Of a DNA stretch of 64,000 bases, positions 5,927 through 28,621 are shown in pieces. A program made the translations under genes and the position numbers. How positions within the stretch are numbered: the stretch's first letter is position 1; each line of letters opens with the position of its first letter. The notes below the pieces were generated by a model. It searched no databases. It had not been told where the DNA came from and worked only from the letters and a program-made list of their open reading frames with translations. The stretch comes from Anaerolineaceae bacterium (lineage in GTDB: Bacteria > Chloroflexota > Anaerolineae > Anaerolineales > Anaerolineaceae): the NCBI GenBank assembly GCA_029975475.1, contig JARKPB010000008.1:62001-126000 (forward strand), in the 5' to 3' direction.

Positions 5927-6841
5927 CTACCGCAGCGCGGCGACTTGCCGGTAAGCGGGCAAATCGGTGTAAAGTTCTTCTTTCAGCGGGTTGCGGCGGG
6001 TCTTGCGAATGGTGTAGATCTCATACCCGAGGACACCCAGGTTAGAAGCCAGCGCCAGGGCGCTGACCACAAACAGGGCGACCGGATTGTGAGAAGATTT
6101 CACCGCGAAGATGGAAGTATCCACGAATGACGGGAAGGTCATCACGAACATCATCCAGAAAGCCAGAGTCTGGGCGCGGTGCTGCAGCCAGGCGCCGCGC
6201 TTAATGATGAACGCGGGAATGGTGCAGGAAACCAGCAGAGCCGCGCCGGCATAATAGGCGTGGTCTCCGACGCAATTGTAGACATAGGCGAAGTTCCAGA
6301 GGTCATAGGCGATGATCCAGAACCAGAGCATGTCCGGCCAGAGCATGTCTTTTTTGCTGTCCTTGCCGATAAAGATGCCCATCCAGCCCGTGATGGTGAT
6401 GATGTTGAGGATGCCGGCGACGCCGTTCATGATATTCCAGGGACCGCCGAGGATAAAGGTACCGTCCACGATGCCGTTGGCGCCAAAGGACTGAAAGTCG
6501 CGCACCACCGCTTCCATGATGTTGATCGCCAGGATCAGCGGGGGGAAGAGCAGGGCGTAACGGTTGTTCGCCCAGCCTTTGATATTGCGGATCGCCAGAA
6601 AACCGAGCGAACCGGCCAGAGCAGAATAGACCTTTGCCCAGTGGAACCAGCTGCTGACGCTGGAGCCGTGGCTGGCGGTGCGCGTCCAGACCGTGACGGT
6701 CAGTACAGCCGGCAGGACCAGGAAGAGCGCTAGCGAGACCCATTTGTTCAACCGCGCCAGTTCGTTCAGTAAAATCAATCCGCCCAGCACAACGAACCAC
6801 ATGAGGATGGAATACCAGGGAATGGGCTCAAATAAAAACAT
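5927..6841 (-). CDS. polytopic membrane protein, DUF5692-like
   Basis: A 304-residue integral membrane protein with about eight or nine hydrophobic segments and short loops. Recognisable blocks include EPIPWYSILMWF at the N terminus, WNIMNGVAGILNIITITGW in the middle, and DLWNFAYVYNCVGDHAYY. They resemble what I recall of the uncharacterised DUF5692 family; function is unknown. The ATG at 6841 is preceded by a purine-rich stretch (AAAAGGAG). Its promoter carries a near-palindrome next to the -10 box, and a TetR gene is divergent from it, so TetR control is likely. By analogy with TetR-paired membrane proteins it may move or sense a small molecule, but nothing in the sequence names it. Confidence 0.65.
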   Translation of the reverse strand: MFLFEPIPWYSILMWFVVLGGLILLNELARLNKWVSLALFLVLPAVLTVTVWTRTASHGSSVSSWFHWAKVYSALAGSLGFLAIRNIKGWANNRYALLFPPLILAINIMEAVVRDFQSFGANGIVDGTFILGGPWNIMNGVAGILNIITITGWMGIFIGKDSKKDMLWPDMLWFWIIAYDLWNFAYVYNCVGDHAYYAGAALLVSCTIPAFIIKRGAWLQHRAQTLAFWMMFVMTFPSFVDTSIFAVKSSHNPVALFVVSALALASNLGVLGYEIYTIRKTRRNPLKEELYTDLPAYRQVAALR

Positions 6842-6932
6842 GGTTGACTCCTTTTCAGTTTTGGGTTGGTGAATATCAGGCCAGCAGAGCCTGAGAAGGC
6901 CGTGGAAGGCGGATTTTGGGATATACTATAAC

Positions 6933-6950
6933 ATACCAATCGTTAGGTAT
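6933..6950. promoter_or_regulatory. candidate TetR operator
   Basis: Imperfect 18-bp palindrome ATACCAATCGTTAGGTAT (outer arms ATACC/GGTAT, CG centre). It starts 4 bases downstream of the -10 of the minus-strand promoter and lies in the gap between the TetR gene and its divergent neighbour. Size and shape are typical of TetR-family operators. Confidence 0.6.
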
Positions 6951-6954
6951 TTTT

Positions 6955-6983
6955 ATTATAGTCAGATTTTCTCGTGAAGTCAA
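6955..6983 (-). promoter_or_regulatory. sigma-70 promoter for the DUF5692-like gene
   Basis: On the minus strand, TTGACT (6983-6978) and TATAAT (6960-6955) are separated by 17 bases: a near-consensus promoter directed at the membrane-protein gene. The TetR-type palindrome covers the expected transcription start. Confidence 0.75.
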
Positions 6984-7029
6984 ATCATTTTTTCCAGGTT
7001 GGAGTAGAATCGACTGCAGAGGTGAAATC

Positions 7030-7650
7030 ATGGCAAAGGATGGAAAGCTTAAGATCATCGAAGCCGCGCAGCGTTTAATCGCCCGACAGGGCGTGGAAAA
7101 AACCTCCATGCGCGACATCGCTGCGGAAGCCGGGCTGACCACCGGAGCAATCTATTATTACTACCCTTCGAAAGAAGCGCTTTTGTATGATGTCATGGAT
7201 CATGCGACCGCGATCACGTCTAACATCATCGAAATGCTTCAAGGGTCGCCGGCCGAACCGCAGGAAGTGTTGAATGAAATCGCGCGTCAGGTGCGCCAGC
7301 GCTTGATGAGCGACAGCAGCACCCGCCGGCTGCGCTATTACCTGGCTTACCAGGCCGCGCTGGGGGATGAGGCGCTCAGGGAGAAATTCGCCGCGGATTA
7401 CGCCGCCCAGGCCGAACGAACCGCGCGGCTGTTCAATTATGTCTTCAGTACCGAACGCAAACCGCAAGACCTGGCGCTGGCGGTGATCATGGTGGCGGCG
7501 CTGGACGGGATTAATCTGCAGCAGTTCATCGGCGCGCTGCCCGTGGAAGTTGACGAGCTGGCCCGGGTTTATAACGAATTTTTCGCTTTCGCCGTTCCGC
7601 TGTACCAGGAAAACGCTGAACAGCTCAAACGGTTTGAAAATTTGGAATGA
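7030..7650 (+). CDS. TetR/AcrR family transcriptional regulator
   Basis: A 206-residue one-domain repressor. The N-terminal helix-turn-helix is at about residues 8-52: IIEAAQRLIARQGVEKTSMR, then DIAAEAGLTTGAIYYYYPSKEALLYDV, the standard TetR recognition pattern. The rest is the variable ligand-binding domain (all helical). The start at 7030 follows AGAGGTG; an in-frame ATG at 6916 would add a basic tail overlapping the operator region and is rejected. The most likely target is the divergent promoter at 6955-6983 through the palindrome at 6933-6950, which may also give autoregulation. Confidence 0.88.
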   Translation: MAKDGKLKIIEAAQRLIARQGVEKTSMRDIAAEAGLTTGAIYYYYPSKEALLYDVMDHATAITSNIIEMLQGSPAEPQEVLNEIARQVRQRLMSDSSTRRLRYYLAYQAALGDEALREKFAADYAAQAERTARLFNYVFSTERKPQDLALAVIMVAALDGINLQQFIGALPVEVDELARVYNEFFAFAVPLYQENAEQLKRFENLE

Positions 7651-7710: not shown

Positions 7711-9030
7711 TTAAGCCTCAGCGCTCGCAGCGGATGGTTTACTCTCTCCCTGGGTGACAAACCAGAGGCTGAGAAAAGCCAGCACAAAAAATACCGGGCA
7801 GACGATGAAGATCATGTTGTAGTTTTTCCCGCTCAGGTCAATGATCCAGCCGTTCAAGATGGGTCCCAGGGTGGCGGCCAGGGTGGCGGCGATAAAATAC
7901 AACCCAGAATAAGTACCCATCAGACTTTCGGTGGTCGAGGTATCCAGAACCATGGGTAATCCATTGATGTTGATGGCTGCCCAGGCGGCGCCGCCGACAA
8001 ACAAAATGGCAATAATAAACGGCACCGAGGGGAGGAAATAGGCCGCCAGCAAACCGGCGGCAAAGACCGCCAGGCCGATCAGCATGGTCTTTTTGCGGCC
8101 AATCTTCCCAGCCAGCAATCCGCTGGGAATGGCAAAAATGATGAATGAAATATAGGAAGCGGAGAGGATAAAGGCTGCCGTTGATTCCTTAACCCCCAGG
8201 GTGGTTACCGCGTACGACGAAAAGAAGGTCTCAATCGAATTGAAGCCGAGCATGTAAAAGAAAATGGTCAGGATCAGTAAAAAGAGGCTGCGGGCATTCT
8301 CGCGGGGGATGCTGCGCAGATGTTTGAGCACTTTTAGACCGCCCTCAACTTCAGCGGCCTGGACAAGTTCCTCTGGCTCTTTAATTTTACAGAACAGGAT
8401 CGCCACAGCAGCCAGGGTGAGCAGGCCGCCAAACCAGAACGGCAGCGGCCGATAAAGGTTGTAGAGAAAACCGCCAATGATAAAGGCAAATATTCCGCCG
8501 ATACCGGCCATCAGATTGATCACGCCGTTAGCCTGAGACCGCAGCGGAGACGGGATCAGGTCGGGCATGAGGGCGAACAATGGGGTGCGCCAGAGAGCCA
8601 TGGCGATCAACATGATGAGCGCGGCAGCCAGCAAGAGGGTAAACGGGCCGCTTAGCTGGCTTAACTGGCCGTTCAACTCCGCCGGGATCATTTGCGGCGC
8701 CAGCGGGATGACGGCGAAGGCGATGACCGCGATGGGGGCGAAGATTAGGATATAGGGCATCCGGCGGCCAAAGCGGGTTCGAGTCCGGTCGCTGATCGGA
8801 CCCATGATCGGCTGGATGAAGAAAGCCGCGATGTTGTCCAGGGTCATGATGATGCCGGTCAGCGTGGCGCTTAACCCAAAGCCGCGCGTGGCGACCGAGA
8901 GATGAGCGTCAAATGCCGGGCTGCCCGCCTGCAGAAAGATTGGCATATAAGTGTTGTAAATCATCCACATCAATTGAGCGGCAAACAGTCCAAAGCCGAT
9001 GGTAAAGGCTTTTTTGTAATCGAGTTTCAT
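7711..9030 (-). CDS. MFS transporter, SLC45/GPH-like sugar or organic-ion porter
   Basis: A 439-residue, 12-helix major facilitator. It begins MKLDYKKAFTIGFGLFAAQL and shows the family loop signature between helices 2 and 3 (MGPISDRTRTRFGRRMPYIL), typical of the SLC45 and glycoside-pentoside-hexuronide groups, and a second copy of the loop (GKIGRKKTM) in the C half. GGGGAGG precedes the ATG at 9030; the ORF extends upstream to 9087 without a good site. It follows the MoaD-like gene by 65 bases, so it may be the last gene of the YeiH-LarA-AOR group. Substrate is unknown; a sulfonate or sugar linked to that pathway is a guess. Confidence 0.8.
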   Translation of the reverse strand: MKLDYKKAFTIGFGLFAAQLMWMIYNTYMPIFLQAGSPAFDAHLSVATRGFGLSATLTGIIMTLDNIAAFFIQPIMGPISDRTRTRFGRRMPYILIFAPIAVIAFAVIPLAPQMIPAELNGQLSQLSGPFTLLLAAALIMLIAMALWRTPLFALMPDLIPSPLRSQANGVINLMAGIGGIFAFIIGGFLYNLYRPLPFWFGGLLTLAAVAILFCKIKEPEELVQAAEVEGGLKVLKHLRSIPRENARSLFLLILTIFFYMLGFNSIETFFSSYAVTTLGVKESTAAFILSASYISFIIFAIPSGLLAGKIGRKKTMLIGLAVFAAGLLAAYFLPSVPFIIAILFVGGAAWAAININGLPMVLDTSTTESLMGTYSGLYFIAATLAATLGPILNGWIIDLSGKNYNMIFIVCPVFFVLAFLSLWFVTQGESKPSAASAEA

Positions 9031-9095
9031 TGATTCCTCCCCAAAAATTATTAAGCCATCTGCCAGCGCGCTCTTCCTAACCCGCAAAGAAGGAT

Positions 9096-9323
9096 TTATC
9101 CGCCGTTGACGCTGGAATAGATCGTCACTTCATCTTCATCTTGCACCAGAACGTCTAAATCTGCGAGAACCCGGTTGACCGCCACAAGATCCACTTCAGC
9201 CAGCGGAATTTGCAGATCGGTGAGAATTTCCGCCAGCGGCCGCGCTGCGGGCAAACGCATGCGCAGGGCTTTTTTTCGCCCCGGCATGTAATACGTCAGG
9301 TATCCGCCCGCGCGAAGAATCAT
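9096..9323 (-). CDS. MoaD/ThiS-like sulfur-carrier protein partnered with AOR
   Basis: A 75-residue beta-grasp protein ending in ...SSVNGG. The exposed C-terminal Gly-Gly is the hallmark of MoaD/ThiS carriers, activated as thiocarboxylate to give sulfur to molybdopterin. Its ATG lies one base after the AOR stop, with AAGG inside the AOR end, so the two are translationally coupled. MoaD-like genes are often found next to aldehyde:ferredoxin oxidoreductase genes, where they supply the tungsto/molybdopterin dithiolene sulfur. The same frame stays open upstream to 9590, but that part overlaps AOR and lacks family features. Confidence 0.85.
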   Translation of the reverse strand: MILRAGGYLTYYMPGRKKALRMRLPAARPLAEILTDLQIPLAEVDLVAVNRVLADLDVLVQDEDEVTIYSSVNGG

Positions 9324-9324
9324 C

Positions 9325-11220
9325 CTAACCTTGCGGGAGCATGACTGCCGCCCAGTCCAGCGAAAGGGCTCGCAGTTTTTCAGAGGTGGGAATGCCGGTT
9401 TGCGGGTCCCAGCCTTTGAGGGCGTAGAGGATCGAGAGCGACTCTTCAAACTCGTCCCGAGGCAGCGCGCAGCCCTGCAGCGAGCCGTTTTCCAGTCCCT
9501 GAAACAGGCGTTCAGGCAGGGTATCGTCCTTGCGGGTAAACCCTTCACGCAGGTTAAAGATTCGAGCCATGTTGGTCGCGCGTTCGCCAATCAGCAGCGC
9601 GTCCTCAACGCTCAGCGACCACCCGGAAGCGGCATTGATCGAAGTTATGACATCCTCCACAGCGATATACGAGCGCGGGGTTGGGCCGAAGAAGCAATAC
9701 CCGATCACCTTTTCCAGGCTGTTCCAACGTTCCAGGGTATAGAAGTGTTCCATTTTTTCCCGCCCGAAACTGCGCGCTGGCAGGGCTTTGGTGATTCCGA
9801 GGGCGGTTGCGCCTTTGAATTGCAGCGATTCCGGGTTAACCAGGGCGGTGTCGTGGGCGACCACCAGATGATCTGCTCCAATTTCAGAAATTGCGTACCC
9901 CATTCCCACGTTATACTTACCGCGCGGCTCGTGCATGGCCAGTTCCTGACCCTTGACCTGCATGGCAAAGAAAGCGGCATCTCCGCCGATCTTTTCCGCT
10001 GCGCGGCGGCTGCCTTCAGCCAGTAAATCTCCCAAGCCTTCGCGCCGGGCAATCATTTCAACCATCGCCAGCATAGCCTGCGCGTTGCCAAAACGGAGAT
10101 CGATTCCGCCGGTATCCTTCAGGGTGAGCAATCCGTGTTCAAAACATTCCATGGCGAAGGAAATCGTCGCACCGGTGGAAATGCTGTCCAGCATGTAGGC
10201 GTTGCAGAGTTCGTTTGCCTGGGCGATTGCCTGAAGGTCTGAAATGCCGCAGTTCGGGCCGAAGGCGCCCAGGGTTTCGTATTCCGGACCGCCGTACTCA
10301 GACACCCGGCCGTTCACGGCTACCTCTCGCTTGCAGCGAACGGCGCAGGCGTAGCATGACCGCCGGGCAGTCAGCAGCTGCTTTTCATAGGCGTCCCATT
10401 TCACCTCATCCACAGCCTCAAATGCTCCCTGGCGGAAATTGCGCGTGGGCAGAATCCCGCCGGCATTCATCGGTTCGACAATTCCCAGGGTTCCTTTATC
10501 CTGCAGATCCCAGGAGATGGGATTTTCTTTGACGCCTTTTGCCAGTTTTCGTCCGAGGGCCATCAATGCCTCGGGATCGGCGGCGAAGGACTGGTACCGC
10601 TGGCTGCCGCGCACTGCGACCGCCCGCAGGTTCTTTGAGCCCATCACGGCGCCCAGCCCGTTGCGGCCGTTAAAGTGGCGCAGGTCATTGGTCAGACCCG
10701 CGAAGCGCACCAGTTTTTCACCAGCCGGACCGATTTGCAAGACGCGAATTTTCTCATCCCCCAGCTCGGCACGGATCGCTTCCTGCACTTCGGCGGTCAG
10801 CCGCCCCCAGAGGTGGCTGGCGGATTTTAGCTCCGCCTCCCCATCGTGAATCCACAGGTAAAGCGGCTCGCTGGCGCGGCCTTTGACCACCACGGCTTCA
10901 AAGCCGGCCATCTTCAATTCAGGACCCCAGAAACCGCCCGCCTCAGATTCGCCGTACCCCAGGGTGAGAGGCGACCGCGCCGAGACGATGTAGCGGGTGG
11001 CGGTAGAAACCGGCGCGCCGGTGAGGAGACCGTTGGCGATCACCAGGACATTTTCTGGAGAAAATGGATCAACGCCCGCCTTCATTTCATTCAACAGTAT
11101 ATAGCCTGCAAGCGCCTTCCCGCCGGGATAAAGGCGGTAAAAATCTTCGGGCAAAATTTCGGTACGAATCTCTCGTTGTGTGAGGTCAACCCGCAAGATT
11201 TTGGCTGATGTTCCGTACAT
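9325..11220 (-). CDS. aldehyde:ferredoxin oxidoreductase (W/Mo-pterin)
   Basis: Tungsten (or molybdenum) bis-pterin enzyme of 631 residues that oxidises an aldehyde to its carboxylic acid and reduces ferredoxin. The N-terminal domain has LYPGGKALAGY, the AOR fold start. The [4Fe-4S] ligands are visible as CxxCxxxC at 289, 292 and 296 (SCYACAVRCK), with the distant fourth Cys at 509 (VIGYCFFG). DLRHFNGRNGLGAVMGSKNL near 179-198 is the pterin-binding block. AGGAG precedes the ATG. It lies between the M24-like gene and the MoaD-like carrier in a tightly packed group with larA and yeiH. In context the aldehyde could be 3-sulfolactaldehyde from the transaldolase, which is inference. Confidence 0.93.
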   Translation of the reverse strand: MYGTSAKILRVDLTQREIRTEILPEDFYRLYPGGKALAGYILLNEMKAGVDPFSPENVLVIANGLLTGAPVSTATRYIVSARSPLTLGYGESEAGGFWGPELKMAGFEAVVVKGRASEPLYLWIHDGEAELKSASHLWGRLTAEVQEAIRAELGDEKIRVLQIGPAGEKLVRFAGLTNDLRHFNGRNGLGAVMGSKNLRAVAVRGSQRYQSFAADPEALMALGRKLAKGVKENPISWDLQDKGTLGIVEPMNAGGILPTRNFRQGAFEAVDEVKWDAYEKQLLTARRSCYACAVRCKREVAVNGRVSEYGGPEYETLGAFGPNCGISDLQAIAQANELCNAYMLDSISTGATISFAMECFEHGLLTLKDTGGIDLRFGNAQAMLAMVEMIARREGLGDLLAEGSRRAAEKIGGDAAFFAMQVKGQELAMHEPRGKYNVGMGYAISEIGADHLVVAHDTALVNPESLQFKGATALGITKALPARSFGREKMEHFYTLERWNSLEKVIGYCFFGPTPRSYIAVEDVITSINAASGWSLSVEDALLIGERATNMARIFNLREGFTRKDDTLPERLFQGLENGSLQGCALPRDEFEESLSILYALKGWDPQTGIPTSEKLRALSLDWAAVMLPQG

Positions 11221-11229
11221 GGTCTGCTC

Positions 11230-12336
11230 CTAAAGTTCAAGTGCCAGGGCGCAGCGCACCGCGCCGGGCTGATCGGGGACGGACAGAGTTTCTTCGGGCC
11301 ACAGACTTGTGGCGGTTAACAGTTCCGGCGCCTGATCTGAGATCAGGTAGGTGTCTTCCATCTTCGCGCCGGCGATGGTCGGGTTCCAGGCCACCGCCTG
11401 CCCTTCTTTTAGTATATCTGCCGCTGCGGGTAAGGCAAGATATTCGCGGGGTTCATAACCGGTGACGCCGCCCTGGTGGTGGCGCTGCCATTCGTCCGGA
11501 AAGCCGCAGTCGGTATACGCTTCGCGGGCGAAGCCGAGCAGCGCGTCAAGCGACGCGCCCGGGCGGGAGCGGGCCACCAGCGCGGCGTTAACCCGAGCGG
11601 CGGCGCGGATTCGCGCGGTCAGGTCCGGGGGCGGCGGGCCAAAATGCACCAGGCGCGTCATCGAGCAAACCAGACCGCGCTGGCGGGCGTTTAAACCCAG
11701 CAGAGCATAGCGCTGCAGACCGCGGTCAGTGGGCAGGGGATGACGGTAGCGGTAATTGCGTTCATCCGCAGCGACCAGAAGGACGATGGGCTGGATGCCG
11801 CGGCGCTGGGCTTCCGCGCTCATCAGGGCGGCGATCTCGTGTTCGCTCATTCCAGGCCGCAGAGCCACGGCAGCCGCTGTGAGGATTTCGGCGCAGGCTT
11901 TTCCCAGGCGGCGGAAACGCTCACCTTCCCAGGGGGTTAAACAGGCTCGCAGGCGGGCGATTTCCGCGGCGATTTCCCGCGCCTGGTCGTAGGATACGTC
12001 GCTGATGACCTTTTGATCCTCCAGCAGGCGATTTAACCCCTGGAGGGGAGAATGCCAGGGCGAGATCACGAACTCCCATCCCTGATCTTCCAGATGTTCT
12101 TCATCCATTAATCGCGGGGCTTCAATATTATTCGTCGCCAGGTATTGACGGTCCGGGGTGATCACCAGCGAAGCCGCGCCTTCGGTAACCGCGGTATTGA
12201 CGTAAGACCCGGCGCCGCAGGTAGCCCAGGAAAAACTGCTCACCCGGCGCAGCAGGACGGCATCGGCACGGTGGCGGTTGAGCAGAGCGCGTAAGGCGGT
12301 GATTTTCTGTTGCAGTTCCGGATTCTGGGCGGGCAT
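11230..12336 (-). CDS. creatinase-like M24 (pita-bread) protein lacking metal ligands
   Basis: A 368-residue protein with a creatinase-type N-terminal domain (about 1-140) and an M24 pita-bread domain (about 145-360). In metal-using aminopeptidases this fold needs two Asp, one His and two Glu. Here the segment that should carry both Asp (YALLGLNARQRGLVCSMTRL) has neither, while HHQGGVTGYEPREY and the late Glu (AGAKMEDTYLI) remain. That pattern is like creatinase, a metal-free C-N hydrolase, rather than a peptidase. It sits between larA and AOR with 6- and 9-base gaps, so it belongs to the same operon. Substrate is unknown; a role on a nitrogen-containing side product would be a guess. Confidence 0.75.
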   Translation of the reverse strand: MPAQNPELQQKITALRALLNRHRADAVLLRRVSSFSWATCGAGSYVNTAVTEGAASLVITPDRQYLATNNIEAPRLMDEEHLEDQGWEFVISPWHSPLQGLNRLLEDQKVISDVSYDQAREIAAEIARLRACLTPWEGERFRRLGKACAEILTAAAVALRPGMSEHEIAALMSAEAQRRGIQPIVLLVAADERNYRYRHPLPTDRGLQRYALLGLNARQRGLVCSMTRLVHFGPPPPDLTARIRAAARVNAALVARSRPGASLDALLGFAREAYTDCGFPDEWQRHHQGGVTGYEPREYLALPAAADILKEGQAVAWNPTIAGAKMEDTYLISDQAPELLTATSLWPEETLSVPDQPGAVRCALALEL

Positions 12337-12342
12337 ACCTTT

Positions 12343-13602
12343 TTACCTGTTTATGAATGGGATGGTGCTCGAAGCGTGGGGGAGGATACCAATCAGCGCA
12401 TCGGGCGGCAAGTCCGCGAGGGCTTCATCCAGCGCGGATTGCAGATCGGCGGCGGGATTGAGCAGCAAGGCTTTCGCGAGGTCGGGATCCAGATCGGTTA
12501 CCGTGCGCAGGCGCACCTGGCTGGCATCCCGCGCGATGAGAAAGGCTTTATGAGGACCAACGCGGAAGCCCTCGGAAGCAAAGCGGTCGATCACCTGCGC
12601 ATAGGATGTCTTTCCGCGCATCCAGGCTTCATAGTGCGGACTGCCGCTGCCCTGCGGACAGGCGGCCACCAGGATCAAGACCGCACCGGGGGCGGCCACA
12701 CGGGCAGCGTGCGCCAGCGCTTTTTGAGCCTGATAAACGTTGAGATCTTTGGGATGCCCGCCCGCGGAGGCGATTACCAGCCCGCAGGGACGATTGATCC
12801 CGGCCTGGCAGGTCTGGCGCGCAAGCGGAACCCCGAGGTGCATCACCTCGCGCGGATCCCCGGCCAGCACGGCGGTGATTTCGCGCTGGCTGTTCAAAAC
12901 CACGTTGAGCGCAAGATGAACGCCGATTTTCGCGCCGATGTCTTCAATATCCTGCCGGGTGGGGTTTGTCTCGAAATCACCCAGACGGGACTCCGGGCGG
13001 GCGAGGAGGGAATGGTTGGCGTTGATTGTTTCCAGGCCGACTAGCCCGACCGCGGCGGTTTTCACCCCTCCAGAAAAGCCAGCGAACTGGTGCGGTTCGA
13101 TGTTACCGACCACGATTTTGAGATCCGCCTGATAGTATTCCCGGTTGACCAGCACGGGCGTGCCCAGACGGGTGCAGCCAAGTGATACGAGTCGGGACAG
13201 GTCTTCGGCATCATGCGAGCGAACCCGGCAGCGGGACAGCACTTCCGCGGGCAGCACCTGATTAAATTCGTCCGCCTTCATCGGCGGGTGGGTTCCAACA
13301 GCCAGATAGAGGGTGACAGCCGCGTCCGAAATACCCAGCGCCTTCAGGCGCGCCAGCAGCGGCGGCAACAGCAGGGCGTGCGGAACGGGGCGGGTTTTAT
13401 CGTTAACCGCCACAGCCGCGCTGCGCGCTCCGCGCAGTGAGTCCCAGGTGAGGCCTCCGGCCAGGCGATCCAGCGCGGCTTCCACCGCCGCCGAAGGATT
13501 GGCAGCGGGCGGCGAGGCGGGTGCTTCGATCACCACAGTTGGGCGGTTATCCGGGAGGCTGAAGGAGAGCGAGGTGCGGCCGTAGGGAATGCTGAAACGC
13601 AT
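12343..13602 (-). CDS. larA: LarA-family nickel-pincer hydroxyacid racemase/epimerase
   Basis: LarA enzymes use the nickel-pincer (NPN) cofactor to interconvert 2-hydroxy acid stereoisomers by hydride transfer. From the ATG at 13602 (419 residues) all known key positions are present: Arg71 (DKTRP), His105 (GTHPP), His171 and Lys181 (EPHQFAGFSGGVK; the Lys carries the pincer), His197 (NHSLLARP), and Tyr290-Gln291-Lys294 (VYQAQK). These sit 3-4 positions before those of the Lactobacillus plantarum enzyme. A TTG at 13614 is an alternative start, but ATG just after the upstream stop suits coupling. No larB, larC or larE is in the window. The neighbours (AOR, SuyAB-like lyase) suggest sulfolactate as substrate; lactate remains possible. 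Confidence 0.88.
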   Translation of the reverse strand: MRFSIPYGRTSLSFSLPDNRPTVVIEAPASPPAANPSAAVEAALDRLAGGLTWDSLRGARSAAVAVNDKTRPVPHALLLPPLLARLKALGISDAAVTLYLAVGTHPPMKADEFNQVLPAEVLSRCRVRSHDAEDLSRLVSLGCTRLGTPVLVNREYYQADLKIVVGNIEPHQFAGFSGGVKTAAVGLVGLETINANHSLLARPESRLGDFETNPTRQDIEDIGAKIGVHLALNVVLNSQREITAVLAGDPREVMHLGVPLARQTCQAGINRPCGLVIASAGGHPKDLNVYQAQKALAHAARVAAPGAVLILVAACPQGSGSPHYEAWMRGKTSYAQVIDRFASEGFRVGPHKAFLIARDASQVRLRTVTDLDPDLAKALLLNPAADLQSALDEALADLPPDALIGILPHASSTIPFINR

Positions 13603-13603
13603 A

Positions 13604-14707
13604 TCAGGCGCCAAGGGGGGTGTATAAAATGAAGATCAGGCTGGCAGCCGCCAGGACCAGGGCAACGCAGGTGCCGACCAGGAGCGGTTTCAGACCGATG
13701 CGGCGCAGGCTGGCTAGACTGGTGTTGAGCCCAACCCCAGCCAGAGCCGTCAGGATTAAAAATTTTGAGAGATCGTCCAGCGATTTGAGCGCCGCTGCTG
13801 CGGCGGTCAGTTCGCCGGGATTGCTGACCGACTGGGGCAGGATTCCGGCGGCCACACCCAGCGTGCGCAGGAGGGCCATAAGCAGGAATCCGATCACAAA
13901 ACCGGGAATAATTTTCTTCCAGTCCGGGCGGGCGGCCCGGGCCGCTGCATCACTCATGGGTTTCTTCAGCGCGCCGGTGTAGATCAGCCCGTAAAGAATG
14001 ATCAGCGGCGCCATCAGGGTGTTGCGGGTCAGTTTGACCACAGCAGCGGTATCCAGAGCGCCGTCGCCGTAGATCGTGCTGACCGCCACCACCTGCGAGG
14101 TATCGTTGACCGCGGTGCCTGCCCACAACCCGAAGGCATGCTGGGGTAAAGCGAGCGCGCTGCCGATGAAGGGGTAGATCAGCACCGCCAGCAGACCGAA
14201 GAGGGTAATGGTGGCGACCGCGAAACCCATCTCTTCCTCACCAGCGTCAATCACCGGAGCGGTGGCGATAATGGCGGTGTTGCCGCAGATGGCGGTGCCG
14301 ACGCCGATTAAGACAGCCAGCTTGCGGGGAACCCGGAAGAACCGCCCGGCAAGATAAGCCAGCCCAAGCGCCAGGGTGATGCAAACCAGAACCAGCAGCA
14401 GCGCGTTCCCCCCGGTCGCGGCCACATCCTGCAGGCTGAGCCGCAGGCCAAGCAGGATGATACCGGCGCGCAGCAGACGGTGAAGGGCAAACTTAGCACC
14501 GGCCCGCAACGGCGCATTCAATGGAAAGGCATTGCCAATGTAGAGGCCAAGCAGCACGGCGATCAGAATTTCGCTGATGGATTTCGCCAGCAAGGGCTGG
14601 GCGATCAGGCCGTGCAGATAGCGGCTGATGATGGCGACCGCCAGCGCCAGGTTGATGCCCATCCACCCCTGGCGGATTTCTTCGCGAATCTGACGAATCA
14701 ATGACAT
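13604..14707 (-). CDS. YeiH-family putative sulfate/sulfite exporter
   Basis: A 367-residue membrane protein with about ten or eleven helices. It has the family blocks SEILIAVLLGLYIGNAFPL, RAGIILLGLRLSL, GVGTAICGNTAIIATAPVI and WAGTAVNDTSQVVAVSTIYG, which identify the YeiH (UPF0324) family, annotated as putative sulfate exporters. The ATG at 14707 follows CGGAG; 24 extra upstream residues (to 14779) run into the hairpin and are rejected. It leads the group yeiH-larA-M24-AOR-moaD. Next to a SuyAB-like sulfo-lyase its obvious job would be to remove sulfite from the cell; the family's true substrate is not firmly established. Confidence 0.85.
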   Translation of the reverse strand: MSLIRQIREEIRQGWMGINLALAVAIISRYLHGLIAQPLLAKSISEILIAVLLGLYIGNAFPLNAPLRAGAKFALHRLLRAGIILLGLRLSLQDVAATGGNALLLVLVCITLALGLAYLAGRFFRVPRKLAVLIGVGTAICGNTAIIATAPVIDAGEEEMGFAVATITLFGLLAVLIYPFIGSALALPQHAFGLWAGTAVNDTSQVVAVSTIYGDGALDTAAVVKLTRNTLMAPLIILYGLIYTGALKKPMSDAAARAARPDWKKIIPGFVIGFLLMALLRTLGVAAGILPQSVSNPGELTAAAAALKSLDDLSKFLILTALAGVGLNTSLASLRRIGLKPLLVGTCVALVLAAASLIFILYTPLGA

Positions 14708-14757
14708 AAACAGCTCCGATAATGAGAGCAGCCTGGGAACACAGCGCATCCCGGCCG

Positions 14758-14806
14758 TAAAAACGCAAAGCATCATCAACCTGCGATCATGCTTTGCGTT
14801 TACGGG
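14758..14806 (-). terminator. hairpin separating the SuyAB-like genes from yeiH
   Basis: A 13-bp perfect inverted repeat (AAACGCAAAGCAT at 14761-14773 with ATGCTTTGCGTTT at 14789-14801) has a 15-base loop. On the minus strand it is followed by TTTTTACGG. It lies between the SuyB-like stop and yeiH, and no promoter is evident for yeiH, so partial read-through may couple the two gene groups. Confidence 0.7.
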
Positions 14807-14814
14807 GGAAATGC

Positions 14815-15981
14815 TTATGCGCTGCGGTAGAGTTTGGTAATGACGAACTCGTCGTGGCGCAGGGCTTCCGCGCTGGTCAGGCGGCCGTTAATGGTATGCG
14901 CCATGACCTCCAGGGTGCGGTCAGCAGCCCCATCCAGGTTGAATTCGAAGCGCAGCATGCCGGAAAGATCCACGTCAATATGTTCGGACATGGTCGCGAC
15001 TGTGAGCGGATTGGCGGTTAACTTAATCACCGGCTCCAGTGGGTTGCCGATAATGTTGCCCTGCCCGGTGGGGAAGAGGTGCAGGACCGCGCCGGCCGCG
15101 CAGCACAGGGTGACCATCTCCGCCGCGGCAGAGGAAGAATCCATGAAATGCAGGCCAGGTTTAGCCGGGGCTTCCGCCGGTTTAAGGAAGCCGGCAACGG
15201 TGCAGCGCCCCATTTTTTCCACATTGCCCAGCGCTTTTTCTTCAATTGTGGAAAGCCCGCCGCGGATGTTGCCTTCGGTCGGCTGGGTGCCAAGCAGCGA
15301 AACACCCTGCGATGCGACCAGTTCCTGGTAATTATCAAAGGCGGCTTTGAACTGGGCAGCGATTTCAGGCGTGGCGCAATTTTCGATGATCTTGTCTTCA
15401 GCGCCGGTGACTTCGGTGGTCTCGCCAAAGATCAGGGTGTTGCCAATTTTCTCCAGGCGCTCAAAGACCCGTCCGACCGTGGGGTTGGCGGCCAGGCCGC
15501 TGGTGGTGTCGGATTCTCCGCATTTGGTCGAGACCCAGATTTCGTTCCACTCCACTGGAACCCGCGGCAGTTCGCTGGCCCACTGGACGAATTCCTTCGC
15601 CTTGCGCGAGGCCATCTCAATGGTCTTGAGATCCCCGTAGCGTTCAATGCTAAAACCGGCCACGGGCTTGCCGGTTTCGGCAATCCCTTTAACAATGTAC
15701 TCGGTCCAGGTCGGCTCGATGCCGATGACCACCACAGCGGCGACATTCGGGTTGCGGCCAGTGCCGATCAACGTATTGAACGTGAGGTGCAAATCTTCGC
15801 CGAACTGCAGGCGGCCGTAGGGATGGGTGAGGGCATAGGTACCGCGAATTAAGCGAGCGACACCTTCGACCGCCGCGTTGGAAATATCATCAACCGAAAG
15901 AATGACCACGTGATTGCGGATGCCGACCCGGCCGTTTTCGCGCCGGTAACCAGTCAGGGGAATGTTGGGAAAAGCGGTCAT
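14815..15981 (-). CDS. UxaA/SuyB-type lyase large subunit (candidate sulfolactate sulfo-lyase)
   Basis: A 388-residue protein of the altronate dehydratase C-terminal (UxaA_C) family. It starts with the family block [19 protein letters not shown] and has [20 protein letters not shown] (metal-site Cys region), [12 protein letters not shown], and a C-terminal [20 protein letters not shown] stretch. Whole UxaA proteins are about 500 residues; here the SAF-domain part is a separate gene 8 bases upstream. That two-gene layout is seen in (2R)-sulfolactate sulfo-lyase SuyAB and in some split sugar-acid dehydratases. The nearby sulfoquinovosidase, transaldolase and YeiH favour SuyB (sulfolactate to pyruvate plus sulfite). 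Altronate-type dehydration is the main alternative. Confidence 0.7.
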
Positions 15982-15989
15982 GGTGCCTC

Positions 15990-16301
15990 TTATGCTTCAA
16001 GAACTTTGGATTTGCTGGCGGCCCAGCGCAGACTCTTAATATTGTGGACGTGGACGTGCTGTCCGAGTTTGATATCGGTGTACGCGTAGCCGATGGCGCG
16101 GCCGTACTCCCGGATATGTTTACCGCTGGCAAGATCGCGCATGGCGACTTTGTGCCCGAGGGGAATATCTTCAATGACTTTAACGACCGCGACCGGTTCG
16201 CCGTCCAGGGTTACCGCCTGGATCTCTTCACCGGCTTTGATGTCCAGCGCAGCGACGCCGACATCGTCACTGGCTTCGTGCAATAAAATCCCTTTTTTCA
16301 T
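15990..16301 (-). CDS. UxaA/SuyA-type lyase small subunit (SAF domain)
   Basis: A 103-residue SAF-domain protein matching the N-terminal domain of altronate dehydratase and the small subunit SuyA. Typical features are [16 protein letters not shown] at the start, a middle [28 protein letters not shown] block, and a His-rich [12 protein letters not shown] near residues 80-91. AAGGAGCCA precedes two adjacent ATGs (16304 and 16301); the second has better spacing. The large-subunit gene starts 8 bases after its stop, so the two should be made together as one enzyme. Confidence 0.75.
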
Positions 16302-16367
16302 CATTGGCTCCTTAAGTCTTTATTTTGTCAAAACAACAGCGCGGAAAGACCGGAGGCTGCGAATGGC

Positions 16368-17030
16368 CTATTCATAGGGAGTCGCGTCCCAGAACTGGCA
16401 AAACTTTTGAATGCCGTCCAGCGTGTAGGGATGCTGGAAACCTTCCTGGTAAACCGCCAGACCGGCGGTTACGATATCCGCGCCAGCCACAGCGCTGTCC
16501 ACGATTTGACGGGCGTTCCGCACCGCGGCGACGATGATTTGGGTTTCAAAGTCGTAGTTGTCGCGGATGGTTACGATGTCTTCAACCAGGGCGCGGGTTT
16601 CTTCGCCGTTGGCTTCTTTCCAGCCGACAAACGGCGAGATGTAATACGCGCCGGAGCGCATGGCCTGCAATGCCTGCATGGCGGAAAAAATGAGGGTGCA
16701 ATTGACGCGAATGTTCTTCCTGGCAAGCGCTTCGATGACCTTGAACGAAGGCTCGATGCACTGCAGCTTAATCACAAAGTTTGGGGAGATGGCTGCCAGT
16801 TTCTCGGCTTCAGGCAGCATTTCTTCATAGGTTGTGAAATGCGGGTTGACTTCTACCGAGACGGTTTTTGGGGTGCCTTCGACCAGGCTGGCGATTTCGC
16901 GGATGACGGTCATAAAAGGCTTACCGGAGGCCTGAATGTGGCGCGGATTGGTGGTAACGCCGTCAATTTGAAAAGCGTCGATTGCGTACGCAATTTCCTT
17001 TACGTGGGCGCTGTCCAGAAAAAATTGCAT
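16368..17030 (-). CDS. FSA/TalC-type transaldolase (candidate sulfofructose transaldolase)
   Basis: A 220-residue class I aldolase-type transaldolase. It starts MQFFLDSAHVKEI, has GVTTNPRHI at 24-32, and the Schiff-base lysine Lys88 in FVIKLQC, aligning with Lys85 of E. coli fructose-6-phosphate aldolase. The small, decameric-type length separates it from the long TalB type. An Arg follows TTNP where Ser or Thr is usual, which could bear on anion binding. AAGGAG precedes the ATG. Transaldolases of this size cleave sulfofructose in the known sulfo-TAL pathway, giving sulfolactaldehyde and fructose 6-phosphate. The position between a sugar isomerase and SuyAB-like genes fits that role. Confidence 0.8.
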   Translation of the reverse strand: MQFFLDSAHVKEIAYAIDAFQIDGVTTNPRHIQASGKPFMTVIREIASLVEGTPKTVSVEVNPHFTTYEEMLPEAEKLAAISPNFVIKLQCIEPSFKVIEALARKNIRVNCTLIFSAMQALQAMRSGAYYISPFVGWKEANGEETRALVEDIVTIRDNYDFETQIIVAAVRNARQIVDSAVAGADIVTAGLAVYQEGFQHPYTLDGIQKFCQFWDATPYE

Positions 17031-17042: not shown

Positions 17043-19211
17043 CTAAAAAGATTTCAACTCAACACCGGCGGGGAGGTTGAGCAGGCGGCCGTTTTGATCC
17101 ACCTGCAGCGCAATACCGGGGAGCTGCAGCCCGATCCGGGGTGTGCCGAACGCCCAGATTTCCTGCAGATCCAGATCGGGTTTGAGCAGGCCGGTATGCT
17201 GGACGGCCGGGCCGAGCGGCAGCAGCCAGCCCTCGCGGCCGAAGACCGGGATGCGGTCAAGCGGCATGACCCGCTCAAACTGGCCAGGTCCCTCGACCCA
17301 GGTCTGTTCCCAGAGGTCAAACCAGCGGCCTCGCGGCAGATAATAGCGCACTTTCCCGCCGGGAACGACCACCGGTGCGACCAACAGGGCATCCCCCAGC
17401 ATGTACTGCTGCTCCGCCTGCCAGGCCAGGCGGTCTTGCGGAAAAGCCAAAACCATCGAGCGAACCACAGGCAGGCCGGTCTGGCTGGCCTGCAGCGCCA
17501 GCGACTGCAGGTAAGGGATCAGCCGGTAGCGGAAAGAAAGCCACCGGCGGACGATGTCTTCCGCTTCCTGGCCGTAGACCCAGGGTTCGCGTTCTCCCAG
17601 GCCGTGAAAACGGGTATGCGAACAAAGGACGCCGGCCTGAGCCCAGCGGACATACAGTTCTGGTTCAGGGTTGCCGACCGCGAATCCGCCGATATCATGC
17701 GCGTAAAAAGGTCCGCCGCTCATCCCCCAGGCCTGCGCGCCGCGAACGCTGGCGGCCAGACCTTCCCAGTCGGATTGCGGATCACCGCCCCACTGAACCG
17801 GATAACGCTGGCCGCCTGCCCAGGCTGCCCGGCCCCAGACCATGGGCTCATCCTGGCTGTATTGATCGGCGGCTTCATACACACAACGGTTATACAGGTG
17901 GGTATAGATATTGTGGAGGCGAGCGCCGGAATCCCCGTTGTAGGCGACGACTTCGGCCGGCACAGCCTCGCCGTAGTCAGTCTTCATCACACTGACCCCA
18001 ATCTCAAAAAGCGCTTGATGCTGATCGCGGAACCAGGCGTAGGCTTCCGGATTGGTGAAATCGAGGATCCCGGAAGGCATCAGGTGCGGCCAGGACTTAT
18101 CATACGGCCAGGGGAACCAGCGGTGGATGTAGGGGCTTCCATCCGGGTTTTTGAGGAAGAAACCGCGGTCAGCCAGTTCGTTGAAGAGCGGATTGCGGGT
18201 GGAAAGATACGAATACTCCCACAGATTCAGGCGGATGCCAAGATCGCGCAGTTGGCGCACGAAAGCCGGGGGATCGGGATAACGGGCCGGGTCCCACTGG
18301 AAATCGAAGCGGTCTTCCATGGTGTGCCAGGCGCGGCCGTCGAGGAGAAGCACATCGCAGGGGATCTGGCGTTCGCGCAGGGTGCGGGCAACATGCAGGG
18401 CTTCCTCGGCGGTGCGGTAGTAGGCGCGGGACATCCACATGCCGTACGACCAGCGCGGCGGCAGGGCCGCCCGACCGGTCAGGTGGGTGTAGCGCTCGAT
18501 CAGCCCGGCAGGATCGGGAGCGCTGATAAAGAAAAGATCCAGTTCGCGGTCAAATACCTGGAAAATATAGGAGCGGTGAGACCAGTTGGGGTAACCCACC
18601 CCGTGAATGACTTTTGAAGGGGTGTGGGTAAAGAGACCCCAACCCTCCGGGCTCCAGGCAAAGGGGGTGTTTTTATAGGAAAGTTCGGAATTTAAGGTGG
18701 TGGCATCTTCGTTCCAGGAATGGATGCGCTGGCCGCGCCGGTTGAGCGAAGCCCACTTCTCACCCAGCCCGTAAATTGGCTCGTCATTTCCCAGCGCCAT
18801 AGAAACCAGCCAGGAATCAGACCGGCGGGCGAAGGGCGAAAACCGCAGATGCCCTTCGATGGTGCGGTCGGTGACGGACTGCAGCAAGAGGCGGCTGCCG
18901 TCCCACAGGCGTATGCGCAGCGGTCCATTGAACAATTCCAGGGTGAGATTTCCCGCCCGGATCTGGCATCCATTCGGCAAATCCGCAACTTCAAGCGGCA
19001 GGTCTTCGGAGCTGGCGGCCAGGATTCCGTAATCCGGCTGGGCAGGCCCGGGAAAGCGCAGGCGCAGGATGCCGGAGGAAAACGCGCTGACCTCAAAATC
19101 GCCCGCCAGGGTGGAAAAGATCACCCGGCCAGGTTCCACAGTCTTGATTCGAAACGATTCGAGCGGCTCGTACCCTTTTTGTAACTGGATACCTTCGTGA
19201 TGGAGGATCAT
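17043..19211 (-). CDS. GH31 glycosidase, YicI (alpha-xylosidase)-like
   Basis: A 722-residue family-31 glycoside hydrolase: N-terminal beta domain (1-235), (beta/alpha)8 barrel (about 250-590) and C-terminal beta domains. The nucleophile is Asp412 in MKTDYGE and the acid/base Asp477 in QWGGDPQSDW. Both, and DFQWDPARYPDP near 303-314, follow the E. coli alpha-xylosidase YicI pattern. It lacks the Q-x12-R-x2-W sulfonate-binding block found in the second GH31 of this window, so it is not an obvious sulfoquinovosidase. No signal peptide is seen, so it should act inside the cell on glycosides brought in by the ABC importer. The start at 19211 follows TTGGAG; the longer frame to 19340 overlaps the permease gene. 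Confidence 0.88.
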   Translation of the reverse strand: MILHHEGIQLQKGYEPLESFRIKTVEPGRVIFSTLAGDFEVSAFSSGILRLRFPGPAQPDYGILAASSEDLPLEVADLPNGCQIRAGNLTLELFNGPLRIRLWDGSRLLLQSVTDRTIEGHLRFSPFARRSDSWLVSMALGNDEPIYGLGEKWASLNRRGQRIHSWNEDATTLNSELSYKNTPFAWSPEGWGLFTHTPSKVIHGVGYPNWSHRSYIFQVFDRELDLFFISAPDPAGLIERYTHLTGRAALPPRWSYGMWMSRAYYRTAEEALHVARTLRERQIPCDVLLLDGRAWHTMEDRFDFQWDPARYPDPPAFVRQLRDLGIRLNLWEYSYLSTRNPLFNELADRGFFLKNPDGSPYIHRWFPWPYDKSWPHLMPSGILDFTNPEAYAWFRDQHQALFEIGVSVMKTDYGEAVPAEVVAYNGDSGARLHNIYTHLYNRCVYEAADQYSQDEPMVWGRAAWAGGQRYPVQWGGDPQSDWEGLAASVRGAQAWGMSGGPFYAHDIGGFAVGNPEPELYVRWAQAGVLCSHTRFHGLGEREPWVYGQEAEDIVRRWLSFRYRLIPYLQSLALQASQTGLPVVRSMVLAFPQDRLAWQAEQQYMLGDALLVAPVVVPGGKVRYYLPRGRWFDLWEQTWVEGPGQFERVMPLDRIPVFGREGWLLPLGPAVQHTGLLKPDLDLQEIWAFGTPRIGLQLPGIALQVDQNGRLLNLPAGVELKSF

Positions 19212-19228
19212 GGACGCTCCAAAAATGG

Positions 19229-20281
19229 TTATTTCATACCGGTGGTGGCGATCCCGGTGGTAATGTAACGCTGCAGGATGCCAAACACAGCCGTGATGGG
19301 CAGAAGGGTCAGAACGGTCATTGCCAGGATCAGATTCCATTGAATATTTAATTCGCCCTGGAACGAGGCGAGACCGACCTGAAGGGTAAAGAATTCGTTG
19401 CGGCTGAGGACGATCAGCGGCCAGAGGAAGTCATTCCAGCGCCACATCACCGAGAAAATTGCCAGCACGGCGATCGCGGGTTTTGCCAGCGGCAGGATGA
19501 CCTGGGCGTAGATGCGCCACTCGCTGGCGCCGTCAATCCGGGCCGCGTCAATCAATTCGTCCGGGATGGTGAGCATATACTGGCGCAGCATGAACACGCC
19601 GGTAGGGGTCGCGGCGGCCGGGATGATCACCCCCAGGAGGTTATTGTTCCAGCCAATCTTGGTGATTACCAGGAAAACCGGCACCATGACGACCGATAAC
19701 GGCACCATCAGGGTGGAGATCATAATCAGGAAGATGGTTTGGCGGCCGCGAAAGCGGTATTTGCTGAGGGCGAAGGCGGCCATGCTGTTGACCAGCAGGG
19801 TTAAGAGGGTTGCCACGACGGTTACCACAATACTGTTCCACAGATACAGGCCAAAGTCAAAACTCTTGATGCCTTCAATGTAATTATCCAGCGTGAAAGC
19901 CACCTTCTCGACGGGTTTGCGCTGGTTGATATTGACCTTGATAATTTCACCGGGATTTTGCGGGTCAATTAACTGAGCTTCCAGACCAACCCGGCGCACC
20001 TGCGCCAGGGTGCGGGTAGAGCCGTCGGGAAATTGGACTTCGAACAGCGGCAGGGGTTTTTCGTAACCTTCCACGGAGATGGTTTGCTGCTGGTATGGGA
20101 GAAAGCGTGGTGGGAATTTGGCAATTTCCTGGGTGGTTTTGAAGGAGGACAAAACCAACCACAGGATTGGGCCAAACATCACCACCACGCCGGCGATCAA
20201 ATACAGGTAGGAAAGGACATCCGTCAGGTGCGGGCGTTTGCGGCCGCGGCGGGCTGTCAGGAAAGTGAATCGTTGGCTCAT
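19229..20281 (-). CDS. sugar ABC transporter permease, MalG-like
   Basis: A 350-residue inner-membrane permease. It has a first transmembrane helix near 25-48 and an unusually long extracytoplasmic insert of roughly 75 residues (FPDGSTRTLAQVRRVGLEAQ). The five-helix MetI-like core follows, with the EAA loop DELIDAARIDGASEWRIYAQ near 250-270 that docks with the ATPase. It ends with the MalG-type C terminus. GAGGAG precedes the ATG at 20281, which lies one base past the upstream permease stop (TGAGATG). No ATP-binding gene is in the operon, so a shared MsmX/UgpC-type ATPase must serve it. Confidence 0.9.
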   Translation of the reverse strand: MSQRFTFLTARRGRKRPHLTDVLSYLYLIAGVVVMFGPILWLVLSSFKTTQEIAKFPPRFLPYQQQTISVEGYEKPLPLFEVQFPDGSTRTLAQVRRVGLEAQLIDPQNPGEIIKVNINQRKPVEKVAFTLDNYIEGIKSFDFGLYLWNSIVVTVVATLLTLLVNSMAAFALSKYRFRGRQTIFLIMISTLMVPLSVVMVPVFLVITKIGWNNNLLGVIIPAAATPTGVFMLRQYMLTIPDELIDAARIDGASEWRIYAQVILPLAKPAIAVLAIFSVMWRWNDFLWPLIVLSRNEFFTLQVGLASFQGELNIQWNLILAMTVLTLLPITAVFGILQRYITTGIATTGMK

Positions 20282-20282
20282 C

Positions 20283-21293
20283 TCAGTTCTCCTCACGGCG
20301 CGCCAGCAATTGAATACCGGTCAGGATGATCAGGACAGCCGCCATCACCAGAGATGCCGCAGCCGCCAGACCGAAAAGTTTATTCGGGCTGGAAAAGCCG
20401 TAGTTATAAATGAATTGAACCAGGAAAAGCGTCGCCGTGCCTGGACCACCGCCAGTGAACACAAAGGCAATATCAAAGACCTGGACGGCTCTGATCAGAG
20501 AGAGAACCACCACCACCACCATGGTCGGGGTAAGCAGCGGCATGGTGATCCTGGTGAACGCCTGCCAGGGATTGGCGCCGTCGATGGCTGCGGCTTCGTA
20601 AAGGTCAGCCGGGATGGATTGCAGTCCGGCAAGCAGGATCAGCGTATAAAAACCCATGAATGCCCAGATGCTGATCATCACCACCCAGAACTGTGCCTGC
20701 TGCGCGTTGATCAGGAAGGGCATTTTTTGATAGCCGAGGGAGGTGAGGATACCGTTTAGCGCGCCGGTGTCCTGCAGGATCCATTTCCAGATTAAGGAAA
20801 CCACAATCGGGGATAATAAGACCGGGTAGAAAAATACCGAACGGAAAAACCCGCGGGCTTTGATTTTGCGGTTCAGGATCAACGCTGTCAACAGCGAGAT
20901 CAGAACCATCCCTGCCACCTGGAAGACAACGTACCAGATGGTGTTATAGACCGCCCGCCAGAAAAGGTCTTCGACACAGGTATTGGGATCGAGATAATTT
21001 TTACAGGTGAGCAGCTGCTCAAAGTTCTGCGTGCCAACCCAGGGGCGCTGTTCCGGGAAAAAGGAAGTGCCGCCGGTGAAGGCATAGACAAAGTTAAGCA
21101 GCATGGGGAAGAGGATGAAAATGCCAAAAATAAGCAGATTGGGCAGGACGAAGACATAGGGCATGCCTTTAATCCCCAGCAAGCGCTGGATAAAAGAGAA
21201 GATAAAATCCACAGCGGCTACCAGACCGTCATAAACGGCGGTGAAGAAGCGGTCAGCGGTATCTCTCAGTGTTTTCAGATTGGCAAGGGACAT
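20283..21293 (-). CDS. sugar ABC transporter permease, MalF-like
   Basis: A 336-residue MalF/UgpA-type permease with six or seven helices and the EAA loop ADLYEAAAIDGANPWQAFTR near 230-250. It contains a periplasmic loop with two Cys (LLTCKNYLDPNTCVEDLF near 97-114), which might form a disulfide. It pairs with the MalG-like permease and lies downstream of the lipoprotein gene, separated from it by a strong hairpin that probably lowers permease expression relative to the binding protein. The ribosome site is weak. Confidence 0.9.
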   Translation of the reverse strand: MSLANLKTLRDTADRFFTAVYDGLVAAVDFIFSFIQRLLGIKGMPYVFVLPNLLIFGIFILFPMLLNFVYAFTGGTSFFPEQRPWVGTQNFEQLLTCKNYLDPNTCVEDLFWRAVYNTIWYVVFQVAGMVLISLLTALILNRKIKARGFFRSVFFYPVLLSPIVVSLIWKWILQDTGALNGILTSLGYQKMPFLINAQQAQFWVVMISIWAFMGFYTLILLAGLQSIPADLYEAAAIDGANPWQAFTRITMPLLTPTMVVVVVLSLIRAVQVFDIAFVFTGGGPGTATLFLVQFIYNYGFSSPNKLFGLAAAASLVMAAVLIILTGIQLLARREEN

Positions 21294-21309
21294 GCTTCAC
21301 ATCCTGTGA

Positions 21310-21336
21310 GGGGCGCGGGGAAACTCCCCGCGCCCC
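21310..21336 (-). repeat. GC-rich hairpin between binding-protein and permease genes
   Basis: A perfect 11-bp stem of G/C only (ggggcgcgggg at 21310-21320, ccccgcgcccc at 21326-21336) with an AAACT-type 5-base loop. There is no T tract. This placement, after the binding protein and before the permeases, is typical of attenuating or mRNA-stabilising hairpins that make the binding protein the most abundant product. Confidence 0.8.
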
Positions 21337-21351
21337 GAAAATTAGCGGCGG

Positions 21352-22674: not shown

Positions 22675-22745
22675 TGAATTATCTCCTCTATATGTTTTTG
22701 ATAGGTTAAACAGGCACGACAAAAGGTTCACACGGTCATCCTTTC

Positions 22746-28619: not shown

Positions 28620-28621
28620 GT

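Follow-up and report, generated by a model that had tools for sequence, protein, structure and literature searches.

A LarA-family protein encoded beside sulfolactate sulfolyase genes as a candidate nickel-pincer sulfolactate racemase in an Anaerolineaceae bacterium

Sulfoquinovose, a sulfosugar of plants, and the C3-sulfonates are among the largest organic sulfur pools. Their breakdown by way of sulfolactate raises a stereochemical question: oxidation of the sulfoglycolytic aldehyde, (S)-sulfolactaldehyde, yields (S)-sulfolactate, whereas the sulfolyase SuyAB takes the R enantiomer. To our knowledge, a pair of dehydrogenases is the only answer to this mismatch that has been described. A first-pass annotation of the DNA considered here, a stretch of 64,000 nucleotides of contig JARKPB010000008.1 from an Anaerolineaceae bacterium (hereafter the window), set out the mismatch, stated that known bacteria bridge it with two dehydrogenases through sulfopyruvate, and proposed that a LarA-type enzyme encoded in the window might be a sulfolactate racemase. 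The literature agrees on both enantiomers, and the two-enzyme route matches the published SlcC+ComC system. In this work, we ask whether the gene, its surroundings and its relatives in other genomes are consistent with a racemase that would act in one step.

The larA gene and its gene group

The first-pass annotation had placed larA in the same gene group as sulfoglycolysis genes and suyAB, and the group is indeed a tight one: all genes lie on one strand, and neighbours are separated by gaps of 1-63 bases or overlap slightly. The genes suyA and suyB lie just upstream of larA, and the exporter gene is the sole gene in between. The features of the group are as follows.

7711-9087, minus strand: MFS transporter (PF07690), at the 3' end of the group
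9325-11220, minus strand: aldehyde:ferredoxin oxidoreductase (PF01314/PF02730; 76% in locus L055), candidate for the step from (S)-sulfolactaldehyde to (S)-sulfolactate
11230-12336, minus strand: M24-fold protein (Peptidase_M24, PF00557; 60% in L055), between larA and the aldehyde oxidoreductase gene
12343-13602, minus strand: larA (LarAH5 type), candidate NPN-dependent sulfolactate racemase (PF09861/PF21113, NF052595, residues and fold)
12547-12552, minus strand: codons of the His-Lys pair H351-K352, a mark of malate-type LarAs and the presumed binding site for the second anionic group of the substrate (alignment; PMC11770544, PMC7583248)
13087-13092, minus strand: codons of catalytic H171 and the adjacent Q172, the substrate-loop position (alignment)
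13604-14779, minus strand: YeiH/PF03601 membrane protein, likely an exporter of sulfite or sulfate, separated from larA by 1 base (TIGR00698 below cut-off)
14815-15981, minus strand: suyB, (R)-sulfolactate sulfolyase large subunit (PF20629/PF04295)
15990-16304, minus strand: suyA, small subunit with a SAF domain (PF08666)
16368-17030, minus strand: protein of transaldolase/F6P-aldolase type (PF00923), candidate 6-deoxy-6-sulfofructose transaldolase
17043-19340, minus strand: GH31 glycosidase (PF01055; best NCBIfam match alpha-xylosidase, below cut-off), candidate sulfoquinovosidase
19229-22731, minus strand: sugar-type ABC transporter, two permeases and a binding protein (position and sequence)
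22746-24116, minus strand: SftI-like sulfoquinovose isomerase (NF048012, E=2.8e-88, below the equivalog cut-off)
24135-25382, minus strand: ROK-family regulator (NCBIfam search)

The SuyB of the window is 59-63% identical to plasmid SuyB-type genes, including that of the hps-suyAB cluster of C. pinatubonensis, and the transaldolase-type gene is conserved beside SftI/SuyAB in three further loci (L038, L054 and L055). Since the SftI, YeiH, transaldolase and GH31 matches fall below the equivalog cut-offs, the assignment of the upstream half of the group to sulfoquinovose breakdown is strong for the genes in combination rather than for each gene individually. For the aldehyde oxidoreductase there is a parallel in Desulfovibrio DF1, where a ferredoxin-coupled enzyme has been proposed for sulfolactaldehyde oxidation (PMC6278857).

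Several genes in and around the group are recorded here as observations in their own right. The M24-fold protein has no evident pathway role despite its conservation in L055. After the aldehyde oxidoreductase gene, positions 9096-9323 encode a short ubiquitin-fold-like protein with a Gly-Gly end (the Ub-Mut7C match is weak and below cut-off), which possibly serves the pterin cofactor of the oxidoreductase. Just past the sulfoquinovose group, the plus strand carries genes for a second GH31 glycosidase and an MFS transporter (27204-30604), and on the other side a gene for a DUF5692 membrane protein (5927-6841) is divergent from a TetR-type regulator gene (6916-7650).

The larA reading frame is intact, with 419 codons for amino acids counted from the ATG. 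Its product matches the Pfam domains Lar_N (PF09861, E=3.3e-50) and LarA_C (PF21113, E=9.2e-15), both above their cut-offs. With the required LarA residues listed in PMC7583248 as reference positions, the NPN-binding residues R71, K181 and H197 and the catalytic residues D68, H105, H171 and K294 are all kept, as the first-pass annotation had stated for the catalytic set; D68, R71, H105, H171, K181, H197 and K294 correspond to D72, R75, H108, H174, K184, H200 and K298 of LarA. An AlphaFold2 model has a mean pLDDT of 95.2 and aligns with the structures of LarA and Mar2 along its entire length (Z 48-50).

As a check on its proposal, the first-pass annotation had suggested a search for larBCE elsewhere in the genome, and these cofactor genes were found in one contiguous larB-larE-larC operon on another contig (C13), each above its NCBIfam equivalog cut-off. 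By its domains, fold, residues and cofactor genes, the window protein is thus a member of the LarA superfamily. Across the genomes compared, LarC is present in 18 of 20 with a suyAB-linked LarA and in 8 of 20 with linked SlcC/ComC (p=0.001), a distribution that is supporting rather than decisive because the compared genomes also differ in lineage; the two LarA-linked genomes in which LarC was not found are draft assemblies. The host genome contains two more LarA homologues, one of them LarAH5-like and located on the same contig 600 kb off (L007), the other distant (L006).

LarA beside suyAB and ComA in other genomes

For a survey that started from SuyB, we combined 16 wide Chloroflexota regions, 80 loci from named genomes, plasmid loci and the window into 99 distinct loci, and scored each for LarA, SlcC and ComC, the references for the latter two being taken from a Methylobacterium plasmid. 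A LarA gene no more than about 10 kb from suyB (10.5 kb at most) is present in 22 of the 99 loci, which is not an unbiased frequency because the 80 named-genome loci are those closest to the SuyB of the window. These cases come from at least five phyla, the linked lineages being Chloroflexota, Actinomycetota, Verrucomicrobiota, Acidobacteriota, Thermodesulfobacteriota and Bacillota, and the LarA gene is mostly on the same strand and frequently the immediate neighbour. The chance expectation is about 1.8% per locus under the generous assumption of three LarA genes per 3.5-Mb genome, but a nominal binomial value calculated from it should not be taken literally, since the loci are related.

The complete SlcC+ComC pair occurs in none of the 22 LarA-linked loci, compared with 28 of the 77 other SuyB loci (p=2e-4, not corrected for the tree). 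At least nine changes of the LarA label are required on the SuyB tree; among nine independent pairs, SlcC+ComC goes with LarA in none and is opposed to it in about 4.7 (median sign-test p 0.06), and the tree-corrected exclusivity is suggestive only. The clearest exchange is seen among the Chloroflexota clusters that combine sulfo-TAL genes with suyAB, where those of Anaerolineae type have LarA and others have SlcC+ComC: LarA is found in the window, L038 and L056, and SlcC+ComC in L039-L041, L043, L044 and L050. Both solutions also occur within Desulfovibrio (L069 versus L084 and L127). A single dehydrogenase is retained in some LarA-linked loci, namely SlcC in L070 and ComC in L088 and L105. 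In two Desulfitobacteriaceae loci, L191 and L192, a ComC-type dehydrogenase gene directly adjoins larA-suyAB, where it is perhaps a branch to sulfopyruvate.

Neither an SlcC nor a ComC gene is present in the window cluster. A search of the host genome for an unlinked pair gave one Ldh_2 gene (39% or less to the linked ComCs) and several genes of the 2-hydroxyacid dehydrogenase family, which lie on other contigs or at a distance and are linked neither mutually nor to suyAB. A route through such unlinked SlcC/ComC-like genes in the host is possible.

Because the SuyB scan is biased toward near relatives of the window SuyB, we added surveys that started from LarA. In 46 Desulfitobacteriaceae genomes, 11 LarAs were collected that are at least 62% identical to the protein of the Desulfosporosinus locus L105. 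Ten of them are accompanied by suyAB, and the eleventh lies at a contig end, adjoining TctC/TctA transporter genes. The order in L105 is GntR regulator, suyA, suyB, larA and a tripartite transporter; in another locus of the family (L187), larA is flanked on both sides by copies of suyAB. In 395 Thermodesulfobacteriota genomes, one of which (G401) is the genome of L084 in the SuyB-first survey, eight genes were LarAH5-like, defined as 457 bits or more: four are near suyAB, one is near ComA, one is accompanied by HpsO/HpsP and a transporter, and two are on contigs too short to judge. Weaker LarA homologues from the same phylum were near suyAB in none of the ten whose surroundings were read.

The genes near ComA (phosphosulfolactate synthase) form a second line of evidence. 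In one Chloroflexota genus, ComA is encoded directly upstream of the LarAH5 gene (L170:8258-9064 and L172), and in a Thermodesulfobacteriota locus (L226:6392-7264), a ComA above the equivalog cut-off is encoded about 2.8 kb from the LarAH5 gene, with no suyAB within the stretch read. This arrangement suggests sulfolactate metabolism that does not involve a nearby suyAB, and it is a second, independent tie of LarAH5 to sulfolactate.

Substrate pocket, LarA tree and alternative substrates

The NCBIfam model NF052595, named "nickel-dependent malate racemase, LarAH5 family", is matched by the window LarA with 510.9 bits against a cut-off of 462. In malate-type LarAs, His/Gln-Lys occupies the place of Trp-Thr in lactate racemase, the Lys being the presumed anchor of the second carboxylate (PMC11770544, PMC7583248). 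Sulfolactate differs from malate in carrying a sulfonate where malate has its distal carboxylate, so the H351-K352 pocket fits what would be expected of a sulfolactate racemase. The His-Lys motif is present in all 23 LarAs linked to suyAB or sulfo-TAL genes, and 22 of the 23 have Gln at the F175 position (Q172 in the window); the paralogue L007 of the same genome has His there. The signature is not in itself proof, because the same residues occur in some unlinked proteins (L151).

In a LarA tree of 55 rows, the window LarA belongs to a clade of ten (support 94/84), all linked to suyAB except L168, which is linked to transaldolase and exporter genes. The sister group consists of unlinked His172-type paralogues, L007 among them, from the same family as the window, and because these are not near suyAB, LarAH5 membership alone leaves the substrate unfixed. 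A second clade, of eight proteins from sulfate reducers, has full support and is entirely linked to suyAB; the ComA-linked set is its sister group, a placement with moderate support. The suyAB-link label needs five changes on the tree, at least four of them forced by the starred branches, so that a single origin of the linkage between LarA and suyAB is not supported. Separately, the gene of L007 (7304-8329) adjoins an alpha/beta hydrolase gene, and malate is a candidate substrate for its product.

Three other substrates or roles have to be weighed. The first is that the protein is a malate racemase whose place in the sulfoquinovose group is accidental or serves pyruvate/C4 metabolism. Its score above the LarAH5 equivalog cut-off and the fact that Mar2, with a malate KM of 0.38 mM, is the nearest solved enzyme by sequence speak in favour of this, as does Mar1, which also racemises malate and, promiscuously, tartrate (PMC7583248). 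However, Mar1 is the sole assayed enzyme of group 5, and its KM for malate is 55 mM, with a kcat/KM of 0.39 compared with 185 for Mar2; moreover, Mar2 has Tyr-Lys where the window LarA has Gln-Phe. A malate racemase would also leave unexplained both the recurrent adjacency to suyAB and ComA in unrelated lineages and the absence of the SlcC+ComC pair, and we regard it as unlikely.

Alternatively, the protein might be an epimerase of another dianionic sulfonate or hydroxyacid, or might be tied to sulfolactate made by ComA, for example to an enantiomer that is exported or imported, rather than to its lysis. The ComA neighbourhoods described above and the TctC/TctA transporter genes beside LarA in several loci are in keeping with such a role. 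The window and most linked loci nevertheless have suyAB, which according to published work requires (R)-sulfolactate, and the simplest common substrate remains sulfolactate, so that this alternative appears quite unlikely. A racemase of lactate or of short-chain 2-hydroxyacids in general, to which family membership and the Lar_N/LarA_C domains would point, is highly unlikely, as the bulky residues of lactate racemase (Phe-Phe loop, Gln-Trp motif, with the Trp in the pocket) are replaced by Gln-Phe and His-Lys, the match to the lactate racemase model NF033504 reaches only 276.9 bits against a cut-off of 460, and Mar1 does not racemise lactate (PMC7583248).

Proposed role and comparison with known systems

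The window protein is very probably an NPN-dependent LarAH5-type racemase that converts the S and R enantiomers of sulfolactate into each other in a redox-neutral reaction. The sulfolactate racemase suggested by the first-pass annotation is supported, at the level of sequence evidence, by the cofactor genes, the malate-type residues, the recurrent suyAB link and the lack of a complete SlcC+ComC pair in the LarA-linked loci.

For the host organism, we infer the substrate, the order of steps and the stereochemistry as follows. Sulfoquinovose would be isomerised by the SftI-like enzyme, and cleavage by the transaldolase would then release (S)-sulfolactaldehyde, which the aldehyde:ferredoxin oxidoreductase would convert to (S)-sulfolactate. 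In the accepted mechanism of LarA, the cofactor takes the C2 hydride, and two His residues serve as acid and base. By the same proton-coupled hydride transfer with two histidines, the window LarA would pass the C2 hydride of (S)-sulfolactate to the NPN cofactor and return it to the opposite face, giving (R)-sulfolactate, with enzyme-bound 3-sulfopyruvate as the presumed intermediate and no consumption of NAD(H). K352, together with H351 and Q172, may bind the sulfonate in the way that malate is held by its second carboxylate in Mar2. SuyAB would then cleave (R)-sulfolactate to pyruvate and sulfite, and the YeiH-type protein would export the sulfur product. A single redox-neutral step by LarA would thus take the place of the NAD-dependent SlcC+ComC pair.

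A complication arises from the product of this pathway: sulfite inhibits the LarA of L. plantarum reversibly and competitively, and it also shields the cofactor from oxidation (PMC11851776). Sulfite-carbon adducts are present in the structures 6c1w and 8ezf. Because SuyAB produces sulfite, an NPN enzyme at this place needs either sulfite tolerance or prompt removal of sulfite, for which the exporter gene 1 base from larA may be relevant. The first-pass annotation was silent on this inhibition and on the automatic annotation as malate racemase.

Beyond this genome, the pairing of LarA with suyAB across many unrelated lineages suggests that a step of sulfonate breakdown has been overlooked. We think it likely that Gln172-type LarAH5 proteins are nickel-pincer sulfolactate racemases, a family of wide phylogenetic spread that has been recruited beside suyAB (and ComA) several times. 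In many anaerobes, it would supply the missing S-to-R conversion when sulfolactate is respired or sulfoquinovose mineralised, and it would have to work despite sulfite. If so, a one-enzyme, redox-neutral nickel step would fill the racemase gap of pathways such as that of Desulfovibrio DF1, and the poor handling of malate by Mar1 would be explained. The name of a database family would be corrected as well, since the "malate racemase" label of NF052595 may need revision in view of the gene context that points to sulfolactate. Organosulfonate respiration that produces sulfite, a process from which H2S arises in guts and sediments, would then be tied to nickel supply. Surveys of LarA substrates do not mention sulfolactate, and we found no paper that pairs LarA or lactate racemase with sulfolactate; as this search covered the open-licence literature, priority is not certain.

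Among known enzymes, Mar1 of Desulfitobacterium hafniense (LarAH5) resembles the window LarA in its NF052595 group, in the His-Lys motif of that group and in the NPN chemistry expected of it. It differs from our proposal in that its assays covered malate-type and other hydroxyacids only and gave the high KM for malate mentioned above. Its discoverers doubted that malate is the native substrate, in a paper that does not mention sulfolactate (PMC7583248), and D. hafniense DCB-2 is cited in PMC12890257 as a user of sulfolactate as an electron acceptor. Mar2 of Thermoanaerobacterium thermosaccharolyticum (LarAH6; PDB 6d6z, 7s91) is the closest solved sequence (E=1.2e-68) and shares the full fold, the catalytic residues and the Lys of helix 14, but it is only 34% identical, has the different loop noted above and has a sub-millimolar KM for malate. 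LarA of Lactiplantibacillus plantarum (PDB 5huq, 6c1w) shares the fold and the NPN-binding and catalytic residues, whereas its different substrate-pocket residues, its substrate lactate and its lack of a link to sulfonates set it apart.

At the level of pathways, the SlcC+ComC system of Chromohalobacter salexigens, Paracoccus and Taurinivorans performs the net conversion that is proposed here for LarA, from (S)- to (R)-sulfolactate before SuyAB, and occupies the same slot of the cluster, but it uses two NAD(P)-dependent enzymes of unrelated folds and passes through free sulfopyruvate; PMC12421959, PMC10507020 and PMC9594981 cite Denger and Cook 2010 for this racemisation. In Desulfovibrio DF1, DhpA, SlaB and SuyAB were reconstituted, and S-type precursors lead to SuyAB with no racemase named (PMC6278857). 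Finally, sulfo-TAL clusters with SuyAB are already known in Chloroflexi: the pathway of Chloroflexi and Thermotogae outlined in PMC9594981 has the same set of isomerase, transaldolase and SuyAB as the window, but that review mentions no racemase in these clusters, and larA and the aldehyde:ferredoxin oxidoreductase gene are the additions found in the window.
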